This document shows positions 33,580-39,459 of a stretch of DNA of 64,000 nt, piece after piece. The position numbers and the translations under genes were made by a program. Below the pieces are notes generated by a model. That model searched no databases and had not been told where the DNA came from. It worked only from the letters and a program-made list of their open reading frames with translations. Within the stretch, counting starts at the first letter, position 1; every line of letters starts with the position of its first letter. The DNA is from Synechococcus sp. RSCCF101. Its GTDB lineage: Bacteria; Cyanobacteriota; Cyanobacteriia; PCC-6307; Cyanobiaceae. The stretch is taken from NCBI RefSeq assembly GCF_008807075.1, contig NZ_CP035632.1:434001-498000 (forward strand), read 5' to 3'.

Positions 33580-34401
33580 ATGAGTCGTGCTCAGCCACGT
33601 CCGATTGTCAAGTGGGCTGGCGGCAAGCAGGCCATTGCCCACAGCATTGTGTCCTGCTTTCCCTCCATCTCAGGCACCTACTACGAGCCTTTTCTCGGGG
33701 GAGCGAGTGTGTTCATGAGGCTCAGGCCGGCCAGGGCTGTGTTGAACGACTCCAATTCCTGGCTGATCGACACGTACATCGCCGTCCGTGAGAACTGGCG
33801 TGCGGTTGCCGCCATTCTGCACGAGCTGCCGAACACCAGGGCCGACTACCTGCGGATTCGGCTTGAGAGCAGGACCTGCACCTCTCCGTGGCGCAGGGCG
33901 GCCTATTTCGTGTATCTTAACAAGACCTGCTTCAGGGGGCTGTATCGGGTCAACAGGCAGAACCATTTCAATGTGCCCTATGGCGCCTACAACCGCAGGT
34001 ACTTTGATGAGAACAACCTCGCGTTGGTCTCTGACAGCCTTCGTTCGGCCCAGCTTCGTTCGACAGACTTCGAGTGCTCGCTTGCCGGTGCCCGCCCGGG
34101 TGATGTTGTCTACTTCGATCCTCCCTACTACAAGCTCGGCGGCTATTCCGACTTCAATCGCTACACCTCTGCACAGTTCAGAGAGCCGGATCACGAGCGG
34201 CTGGCGGCCCTGTGCCGTAAGCTGGATGCCATGAACATCCGCTGGTTTGTCAGCAACAGCGACACGGACTATGTGCGCAGATTATTCGCTGGCTACTCCA
34301 TTCGCTCCATCGCCAACCGGCGTGACATCAACCTTGTTTCGAGACGACGGGGTGTTCGTGAACTTCTGATCTCGAACGACCGCCTGGATGATGATGGGTG
34401 A
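33580..34401 (+). CDS. dam: DNA adenine methyltransferase, Dam (D12) family
   Basis: 273 residues. PIVKWAGGKQAIAHSI and YYEPFLGGASVFMRL form the SAM-binding motif, and VVYFDPPYYKLGGYSDFN has the catalytic DPPY. FVSNSDTDYVRRLF sits near the C-terminus as in Dam. No restriction endonuclease gene is adjacent, so it is a solitary methylase, plausibly for GATC, which is the core of the HIP1 octamer common in cyanobacterial genomes. Confidence 0.92.
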   Translation: MSRAQPRPIVKWAGGKQAIAHSIVSCFPSISGTYYEPFLGGASVFMRLRPARAVLNDSNSWLIDTYIAVRENWRAVAAILHELPNTRADYLRIRLESRTCTSPWRRAAYFVYLNKTCFRGLYRVNRQNHFNVPYGAYNRRYFDENNLALVSDSLRSAQLRSTDFECSLAGARPGDVVYFDPPYYKLGGYSDFNRYTSAQFREPDHERLAALCRKLDAMNIRWFVSNSDTDYVRRLFAGYSIRSIANRRDINLVSRRRGVRELLISNDRLDDDG

Positions 34402-36192: not shown

Positions 36193-36474
36193 TCATAAGC
36201 ACGTGAACGTGTGGTAATCAATGCACTGAGGGCCAATGCCCAGAGTCACGACTTCGCCGCAGACCCATAGCGATACCGCCACAGGGGTGCCTCCGCCGCT
36301 CACCGCTTCAAGCTCCTGGTCGGAAAGCTGCTGAACTTTGGAGGATTCAGCCTTGATGGCTCTGATGTCAGCCGCGGAGATCTCAAATCCTGCCTCCTTG
36401 GCAATGAGGGAAACCTGTTCGCTTGTTGCGGCTGACTGTGCTGCCTGCTTGAGCTTGGCTTGGTTGCGTCGCTT
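36193..36474 (-). pseudogene. Nif11-type RiPP (lanthipeptide-like) precursor, 5'-truncated
   Basis: The minus strand is open for 93 codons from the IS256 junction with no start codon. Residues 7-60 are a Nif11 leader: KLKQAAQSAATSEQVSLIAK, EAGFEISAADIRAIKAESSK, then LSDQELEAV. SGGG at 59-62 is the double-Gly-type cleavage site. The core, about 31 residues, reads TPVAVSLWVCGEVVTLGIGP then QCIDYHTFTCL, with Cys72, Cys84 and Cys92 and five Ser/Thr that could form (methyl)lanthionine rings. The layout is that of ProcA (prochlorosin) precursors. No LanM or peptidase-exporter gene is in the window; a TolC gene is 1.4 kb upstream, beyond the insertion. About 20-25 N-terminal residues are missing. 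Confidence 0.82.
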
Positions 36475-36477
36475 GGA

Positions 36478-37904
36478 GTGGTGTAAATCCCGAGGCCTGT
36501 GATCTGATCGGAGATCAGTGATCAGGCAGCTGCAGCGAGTGCAGCTGTTGCCCGATCTTGGACCGGTTCGCTGGTGTTGTCCAGCTTGGCCATCGACTGT
36601 TCAGAGAACACGCGACGGCCATCGAGCTGCCACTCCTCCTGCTGCTCCAGCAACAGTGCTCCCACCAGTCGGATGATCGCGGCGTCGTTCGGGAAGATGC
36701 CGACGACGCGGGTGCGGCGCTTGATCTCCTTGTTCAGCCGCTCGAGCGGATTGGTGCTCCAGATCTTGCGCCAGTGCTCCGGCGGGAAGGCCCGGAACGC
36801 GAGGACGTCTTCCTTGGCCTGCTCCATCAGCGCCGCAGCAGCGGGGAATTTCTCGGTGAGCATCGTCGTTACCTGCTCCCACTGCTCCCACTGCTGCCCT
36901 GCGGCCCGGGCCTCGGGCTGAACGAACACCGAGCGCAGGGCGGCAGCCACCATGTCCTGGCTTCCCTTGGGCACCTTGGCCAATAGGTTGCGGGCAAAGT
37001 GGACGCGGCAGCGCTGCCAGCTGCAGCCCTGGCAGCACCGGGCGATGGCCTTCTTGAGGCCGGCGTGGGCGTCGCTGATCACCAGTTGCACGCCTGAGAG
37101 CCCGCGCTCGCGCAGGCGGCGCAGGAAGGCGGTCCAGAACGTCTCATCCTCGCTGTCGCCCACCTCGATCCCCAGCACCTCGCGCTGGCCGTTGCCGGTG
37201 ATGCCGACCGCCACGATCACGGCTCTGGAGATCACCTGCCTGCGGGCCGGATCCCGGCCGTGAAGGTAGGTGGCATCGAGGTAGACGTACGGGTAGCGGC
37301 TGAACTCCAGAGGGCGCTGCAGGAAGGCCTGCACCTGGGTGTCGAGGCCCTGGCAGATGCGGCTGACCTCCGATTTGGAGACGCCGCTCTCACAGCCCAG
37401 CGCCACCACCAGCTCATCGACCTTGCGCGTCGAGACGCCCGAGACGTAGGCCTCCATCACCACGGCCCAGAGGGCCCGATCCACGCGGCGGCGGGGTTCC
37501 AGCAGGGAGGGGAAGAAGCTGCCTGTGCGAAAGCGTGGGATGCGCAGCTGGATGTCGCCGGCTGGCGTTGCCAGAAGCCGGTCACGGCTGCCATTGCGAT
37601 GGCCCCGACGCTCAGCTGTGCGCTGATGGCGATCGGCGCCAAGGGCAGCAGCGGCCTCGGCCTCGATCAGGGCCTGCAGTCCCTGGCGCACCAGTTCAGG
37701 GATCAGGTCACCGGCGCTGCCGCTGCCAAGCAGCTGGGCCAGCTCGCTGGCGGCAGAATCAGAAATGGGTATGGTCTGGTCTCAGGACGATGGTAGTGCT
37801 CCGACCAGGGTCACAGACCAGCCCACCCATTCCCCCGCAGGGGATCTGAGGACGAGACCGTCAGCACCGGCTACGCCGGTGCTGCTCCTCAGGATTTACA
37901 CCAC
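36478..37904 (-). mobile_element. IS256-family element
   Basis: GTGGTGTAAATCC (36478) and GGATTTACACCAC (to 37904) are perfect 13-bp inverted repeats. The 8-bp flanks (CGCTTGGA and TTGGTGGG) do not match, so no target duplication is present. It joins a truncated TolC gene to a truncated RiPP precursor. Confidence 0.87.
36522..37691 (-). CDS. IS256-family transposase
   Basis: 389 residues from the GTG at 37691. DDE residues lie in YPYVYLDATYLHGRDPARRQ (Asp), QLVISDAHAGLKKAIARCCQ (Asp) and IWSTNPLERLNKEIKRRTR (Glu). The CRVHFARNLLAKVP block is diagnostic of the Mutator/IS256 group. Coding potential continues upstream (SELAQLLGSGSAGDLIPELV) to about 37770 without a normal start codon, so the real start may be unusual or the N-terminus lost. 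Confidence 0.92.
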   Translation of the reverse strand: MRQGLQALIEAEAAAALGADRHQRTAERRGHRNGSRDRLLATPAGDIQLRIPRFRTGSFFPSLLEPRRRVDRALWAVVMEAYVSGVSTRKVDELVVALGCESGVSKSEVSRICQGLDTQVQAFLQRPLEFSRYPYVYLDATYLHGRDPARRQVISRAVIVAVGITGNGQREVLGIEVGDSEDETFWTAFLRRLRERGLSGVQLVISDAHAGLKKAIARCCQGCSWQRCRVHFARNLLAKVPKGSQDMVAAALRSVFVQPEARAAGQQWEQWEQVTTMLTEKFPAAAALMEQAKEDVLAFRAFPPEHWRKIWSTNPLERLNKEIKRRTRVVGIFPNDAAIIRLVGALLLEQQEEWQLDGRRVFSEQSMAKLDNTSEPVQDRATAALAAAA

Positions 37905-39459
37905 TTGGTGGGACGCCCCCGCTGTCTCCGGGCCAGGTGGAGGAGAAGCGATAGAGCTCAACAACGGCACTGTTGTAGTTGAGCATCGCGTTGGCCCGCT
38001 GTTGCACCGATTGCGAGAGCTGCTGGATGGTCTGCACGACGCTGGTGATGTCACCGACCCCCACCTGGAAGCGTGCCCGCGCCGCCTCCTGGGCGAGCTC
38101 GGCGCTGCGATAGGCCTGCTCAGCACTCTCCACGGCCACGCGTGCGGTCCGGAGCTTGGCGTAGGAGGAGCGAACCTGCTGGGTCACCTGCAGTTCACTG
38201 GTCATCGCTCTGGCCCGTTGCTCCCGGGCCTGGGCCCGTAGCGCCTGGGCGTTGGCGGCCTGAATCCCACCGTCGAAGATCGACCAGGTGAATCCGATCC
38301 CCGCAGCGGCACTCCATTGACGGCTGAGGGCGTAGCGCTCACCGGGGTCCTCCGGAACAGCCACCGATTCGTAACCGTTGAGCAGGTTGAGCCCGCCCGT
38401 TCCGACCAGGGACACCACCGGCAGGGTGCTGCGCAGGGCCGCAATGCCGCTCCAGTCAGCGGCTTCTGCCGCCGCCAGGCTGGCCAGAATCTCCTCCCGC
38501 TGGCGGCGGGCCTGGTCAATCGTGTCCTGCAGTGACAGGGTCCACTCCCCCTGAAGCCGGGCCCGTTCACTGGGGATGGCGAGGCTGTCGGCGGGAAGGG
38601 CCAGGCTTTCAGCGAGCCGGGCCGATTGCTGGATGTAGCGATTGGTGAAATCAACCAGCTGGCTCAGCTGGCTGAACAGCTGCGATCGGGTCTGCTCCAC
38701 ATCGAGCACGGTCACCATGCCGACGCTCTGCTGAGCTTCCAGCATGCTGAGCTGTTGCCTGTTGATGGCGTAGATCTGCTGGAAGTTGTCAATCAGGAGT
38801 TGACTGCTCTGAATGGCGAAGTACTCCTGCTGGATCTCCAGAATGATGTTGCGTGCGCTGATGTCAAACAGGTACTTCTGCTGTCTGAGGGCTTCAGAGG
38901 CGGCATTGATGTTGGGCTGCCGGCTCAGATCAAGCATGGTCCAGTTCACACTCGCTCCGCTCTGCAGCGCCAGGGCCTGGGATTTGGTGGCGACCTGGCG
39001 TTGCTGGTCGCCAAGGCGGGCGCCGGGCAGGGCATAGGCGTTGCGGACAAAGGTGCCCCACTGATAGCCGGCGAAGGGAACACCGTTCGAGAGCTGCAGG
39101 GTGGGATACCACTGGCGCTGTGCGGCGATCAACTGCCATTCGAACTGCTGAATGGTGCTGAAGGCTTCCAGGAGTCTTGGATTGTTCTCGAGGCCGAGCC
39201 GGATGGCCTCGCTCAGGCTGAGGTCCACCGCTTTCGAGCGGACCAGCTCCTGCAGGCTGTTCAGTGTGTCGACCAGCGGCCCTGGATCGGGAGCAGCGCT
39301 CGACGGATTGAATGGAAGGGGCGTCAGCTCCTGGGTCTGGGCTGATCGTCCCCAATCTGCGGCAAGGCTCGCCGTGTTGAGTTGGCTGGTCTGCGCAAAG
39401 GCAATCGCCAGAGTGGCAATCGACCATTTCCGAAGGCGCTGCTGCGCAGAGGACGCCAC
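37861..39459 (-). CDS. TolC-family outer-membrane efflux protein, 3' end replaced by IS256
   Basis: 532 residues as read. Signal peptide (WSIATLAIAFAQTSQLNTAS), then two OEP repeats: LSEAIRLGLENNPRLLEAFS, LLIDNFQQIYAINRQQLSML, VTVLDVEQTRSQLFSQLSQL, and AYRSAELAQEAARARFQVGV with DITSVVQTIQQLSQSVQQRA. TolC trimers form the outer-membrane duct of efflux pumps and type I secretion. The last ~15 codons (SGVNPEEQHRRSRC) lie in the IS256 terminus, so the natural C-terminus after FSSTWPGDSGG is lost; the beta-barrel core looks complete. Confidence 0.88.
   Translation of the reverse strand: MASSAQQRLRKWSIATLAIAFAQTSQLNTASLAADWGRSAQTQELTPLPFNPSSAAPDPGPLVDTLNSLQELVRSKAVDLSLSEAIRLGLENNPRLLEAFSTIQQFEWQLIAAQRQWYPTLQLSNGVPFAGYQWGTFVRNAYALPGARLGDQQRQVATKSQALALQSGASVNWTMLDLSRQPNINAASEALRQQKYLFDISARNIILEIQQEYFAIQSSQLLIDNFQQIYAINRQQLSMLEAQQSVGMVTVLDVEQTRSQLFSQLSQLVDFTNRYIQQSARLAESLALPADSLAIPSERARLQGEWTLSLQDTIDQARRQREEILASLAAAEAADWSGIAALRSTLPVVSLVGTGGLNLLNGYESVAVPEDPGERYALSRQWSAAAGIGFTWSIFDGGIQAANAQALRAQAREQRARAMTSELQVTQQVRSSYAKLRTARVAVESAEQAYRSAELAQEAARARFQVGVGDITSVVQTIQQLSQSVQQRANAMLNYNSAVVELYRFSSTWPGDSGGVPPSGVNPEEQHRRSRC

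Follow-up and report, generated by a model that had tools for sequence, protein, structure and literature searches.

A probable IS256-associated deletion scar of a prochlorosin-type lanthipeptide locus in Synechococcus sp. RSCCF101

The window (the whole stretch of 64,000 nucleotides of Synechococcus sp. RSCCF101 that was analysed) very probably preserves what an IS256-associated deletion left of a class II lanthipeptide locus of the prochlorosin type. An insertion sequence (IS) separates a Nif11-leader precursor without its beginning from a tolC gene without its end (Table 1). The locus is an instructive fossil; the gene cluster that it represents is of a known kind and is not a new system.

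Table 1. Features of the locus, with positions in the window
Feature	Position	Strand	Evidence
Native Nif11-leader precursor remnant, stop codon included	36193..36461	-	TIGR03798; boundary from IS end
Parts of the precursor remnant: leader (starting near residue 20), cleavage site SGGG and core TPVAVSLWVCGEVVTLGIGPQCIDYHTFTCL of 31 residues	36193..36461	-	
Insertion sequence of the IS256 family (1459 bp) with imperfect inverted repeats GGTTGCGTCGCTTGGAGTGGTGTAAATCCCGAGG / GGGGGCGTCCCACCAAGTGGTGTAAATCCTGAGG at its ends and without a target-site duplication	36462..37920	-	Copy-end comparison
Transposase (Transposase_mut) of the IS256 family; frame open, listed start GTG	36522..37691	-	NF033543, PF00872
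Native part (513 codons) of the gene for a TolC-family outer-membrane protein, from the lanthipeptide/Nif11 export locus	37921..39459	-	TIGR01844, PF02321, orthologues

Results

The minus strand at 36193-36474 was translated to 93 residues and a stop codon, which the initial annotation had described as a headless Nif11-type RiPP precursor of 93 open codons. Profile searches upheld this description. The leader_Nif11 model TIGR03798 matched at 2.4e-11 with 43.7 bits (cut-off 32.3), residues 4-61 being aligned to positions 15-68 of the 68 in the profile, with the N-terminal part of the profile absent, and the Pfam Nif11 model scored 24.6 bits (cut-off 23.8). When TIGR03798 was searched against the whole genome, the remnant was the sole Nif11 leader above the cut-off (44.2 bits, profile start 14-15). 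Its frame is open for 135 codons without a stop, and among these no ATG, GTG or TTG stands before the leader. In 36193-36474 the common start codons are confined to three GTGs at or past the cleavage site (codons 58, 65 and 76), of which codon 58 lies immediately ahead of SGGG. Intact relatives start with MSEEQLKAFLE and reach the site equivalent to the first native residues of the remnant at about position 20, so the remnant lacks about 20 leader residues.

The annotated frame could be kept and its upstream boundary could not. The IS terminal repeat, not the precursor, accounts for codons 1-4 (KRRN) and for the first base of codon 5, and the native fragment ends at 36461 because comparison with other IS copies sets the left end of the element at 36462. 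This fragment is a remnant of a TIGR03798 Nif11-leader RiPP precursor and not a working member of that family. A fusion of the fragment to the transposase was ruled out, as the transposase is read in another frame and ends at 36522.

The leader ends in LEAVSGGG, a cleavage motif of the ELExxxGG type, and the 31-residue core that follows has three Cys and five Ser/Thr, in agreement with the roughly 31 residues, three Cys and several Ser/Thr first noted. The core was compared with cores from the fetched lanthipeptide/Nif11 loci (74 cores, among them the window core itself, which was set aside). The best local alignment score was 32, which falls among the best scores of shuffled cores (median 30, 95% at 37), and this best match was therefore rejected as a core orthologue. 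Searching the whole precursor against 400 genomes of the family gave no match with a recognisable core, and a scan of bacterial genome contigs gave one relative, matching in the leader only. The suggestion that the core may be undescribed is thus consistent with these comparisons. An unmatched core is to be expected, since core sequences of the prochlorosin family vary strongly even inside one strain (PMC10783134).

The element between the two genes was assigned to the IS256 family by its transposase (NF033543, 359.6 bits, cut-off 150; PF00872, 442.5 bits) and by inverted repeats at both ends. The genome holds two further near-full copies at 99% identity and one partial copy at 85%. By comparison of the copies, the element was found to extend past the conserved TGTAAATCC, to GGTTGCG (36462) and CGCCCCC (37920). 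One near-full copy (L006) is flanked on both sides by the 8-bp duplication ATCATCCC. At the window copy no target-site duplication was found, the flanks CTTGGCTT and GCTGTCTC being different. The window copy thus shares with known IS256-family elements a Mutator-type transposase and terminal inverted repeats, and differs in having no duplication, as expected for a deletion junction; the missing 8 bp bear on the event and not on family membership. The other near-full copy (L005, genome positions 1860373-1861790) is also apparently without a target duplication and is perhaps a second rearrangement point. The partial copy (L007, 1501-2117; genome positions 1145196-1145812) is about 620 bp long.

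On the far side of the IS, the TolC protein (TIGR01844, 92.1 bits; PF02321, 171.8 bits) is clipped at its C-terminus. In a C-terminal alignment it is conserved up to STWPGDS, after which its frame enters the IS, where orthologues have 12-28 more residues; its tail has been replaced by 19 IS-encoded codons, the frame staying open on to 37861. Among the 400 family genomes, its closest orthologues (46-64% identity) lie inside lanthipeptide/Nif11 export loci, and the next group reaches at most 38%. The order tolC-hlyD-abc1(C39)-abc2 was found in all 17 loci of the close group, and the tolC stop overlaps the start of the next gene in 13/13 aligned loci. In one intact locus (G252) the three transport genes had NHLP ABC1, ABC2 and HlyD as best matches, all below the equivalog cut-offs, and LanM matched its model above the cut-off at 760.7 bits.

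A lanM gene was present within the stretch read in 13 of the 17 loci and is co-oriented in several. In G252, G192 and G300 it is convergent, and past it, at 9.1-9.8 kb from the tolC end, Nif11 precursors stand on the tolC strand. The order and orientation of tolC and precursor in the window are collinear with the same three loci, with the middle genes missing. Like ProcA/SyncA precursors, the remnant can be placed in or near a lanthipeptide export/synthetase locus, by way of tolC, the genes between being gone. Four loci (L087, L088, L090 and L094) had tolC-hlyD-abc1-abc2 and no lanM in the stretch read, and two of them (L087 and L094) also no Nif11 match there. In a TolC tree the window protein had no clear placement, and no clear synteny with the intact loci was seen outside tolC and the precursor. 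No close relative with an uninterrupted locus was found from which the missing leader could be read, the best TolC orthologue being only 64% identical and the genus consisting of one genome.

The genome itself (one contig, 2.98 Mb, 98% complete) was then searched for the partners that a working precursor would have. Neither PF13575 (DUF4135), used for LanM, nor the LanC-like domain PF05147 had a match. As a control, 11 other Nif11-bearing genomes were searched with PF13575; it was detected in 10, and the remaining genome is 53% complete. The proposal that the precursor belongs to a working set served by a LanM encoded elsewhere in the genome is not supported by these results, nor by the search for Nif11 leaders, which found no other over the cut-off. 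The only other Nif11 domain found (G000:C1:1503979-1504146; L048, 5611-6675, minus strand) lies in a Nif11/cupin protein (TIGR03890, 250 bits), and was ruled out as a sister precursor.

A peptidase-containing exporter, for which a search had also been suggested, was not detected: a C39 search found no PCAT-type transporter. Its two matches were ruled out as the missing PCAT, being of about 1000 aa, as against about 730 aa for PCATs, and better matched by the HlyB type I secretion model than by NHLP. They are ABC transporters for type I secretion that carry a C39-like domain (L046, 9755-13890; L047, 6290-10625), and each gene adjoins a HlyD-like gene. No matching HlyD was found in the genome, the best having 30% identity over 147 aa. 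Near the IS there were no remnants of hlyD, abc1/2 or lanM, the only hits in the window being weak ABC-ATPase-like matches far off, at 58.7-59.3 kb. The plus-strand open frame at 33580-34401, judged by its motifs, is presumably a DNA adenine methylase.

Discussion

The precursor does stand beside an IS256-family element, as first described; its decapitation by simple insertion of that element is improbable. Since tolC is clipped as well and no target-site duplication is present, a locus-wide deletion is indicated rather than a plain insertion. In the ancestor, tolC-hlyD-abc1(C39 peptidase)-abc2 probably occupied the minus strand; lanM came next, and beyond it lay Nif11-leader precursors, encoded on the tolC strand. 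From this arrangement an IS256-family element would have removed a segment of some 9-10 kb, as judged from the intact loci. One end of the segment would lie about 12-28 codons short of the tolC end, the other at about codon 20 of a precursor past lanM. The losses would comprise hlyD, both ABC genes and probably lanM; we infer this content, because lanM is absent from the stretch read in 4 of the 17 loci and is co-oriented in several. Left behind would be the IS between a tolC whose tail is IS-derived and a precursor that lacks its start and the first helix of its leader. Such a deletion, possibly a single event, could have run out from one IS end, or could have resulted from recombination between two copies in direct orientation. 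Either route would yield the observed state, in which a single IS with flanks that do not match lies between two truncated genes, and the data fit both equally.

The same genes could also have been brought together without such a deletion. If the IS had inserted into a stand-alone Nif11 precursor that by chance lay beside tolC, in a genome that had already lost the transport and synthetase genes or had never had them, the scattering of precursor genes across picocyanobacterial genomes would be in line with it, as would a survey in which LanM was found in only 9 of 12 precursor-bearing Synechococcus/Prochlorococcus strains (PMC10783134). An insertion should however leave an 8-bp duplication and both halves of the gene, and at the window IS neither the duplication nor, across the element, the precursor start or the tolC end is present; hlyD also follows tolC in every locus of the close group. 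We consider this explanation improbable. An IS-mediated inversion or translocation that joined a lanthipeptide tolC to a distant Nif11 precursor, the other genes being lost separately, appears similarly improbable. The three near-identical IS copies would make recombination between distant copies possible, and the L005 copy resembles the window copy in its apparent want of a duplication, but the flanks of these two copies do not pair, the searches for LanM, LanC-like, C39 and HlyD partners found none surviving elsewhere in the genome, and a chance junction would have had to reproduce the order and orientation of the intact loci.

Separate from the origin of the locus is whether the fragment is still expressed, with translation starting at the cleavage-site GTG or at a rare start codon inside the IS and transcription coming from the transposase, yielding a functional unmodified core peptide. 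The transposase is encoded on the same strand and reads toward the remnant, whose frame is open and has a GTG just ahead of SGGG. None of the common start codons would yield a leader, however, and no synthetase or PCAT-type exporter is left for modification or export; judged from the sequence, such a peptide is extremely unlikely. No lanthipeptide is expected from the remnant, since the synthetase, a dedicated exporter and the start codon are all missing.

The locus can be set beside two known systems. With the ProcA/SyncA precursors of picocyanobacteria, which are accompanied by ProcM/SyncM, the remnant shares a Nif11 leader ending in an ELExxxGG-type site and a variable, Cys-bearing core. 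It differs in having lost its start and first leader residues, in lying beside an exporter reduced to tolC, and in belonging to a genome without a ProcM-like LanM or another Nif11 leader above the cut-off. In NHLP/NHLM bacteriocin export, the models TIGR03794, TIGR03796 and TIGR03797 fit best, below their equivalog cut-offs, to the three genes that follow tolC in intact relatives, whereas none of the three is in the window and tolC alone survives. The distribution of prochlorosin loci among picocyanobacteria is patchy. TolC, HlyD, ABC and C39 genes have been reported near prochlorosin clusters, as in the intact relatives of this locus, and transposases near such clusters have been interpreted as signs of transfer (PMC10783134). 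In the literature covered, which is incomplete, no IS256 deletion scar of a prochlorosin-type locus was found described.

Tentatively, the loss of a prochlorosin pathway may have been frozen here as a single IS-driven deletion, in one step and without gradual decay, and modification by a ProcM-type enzyme might make the orphan 31-residue core a new lanthipeptide scaffold. Where LanM is missing, an orphan Nif11 precursor is not in itself a sign of modification by an unknown enzyme. The locus offers a readable case of pathway loss, in which one IS-associated deletion would have taken the exporter and probably the synthetase genes and left two clipped end genes.
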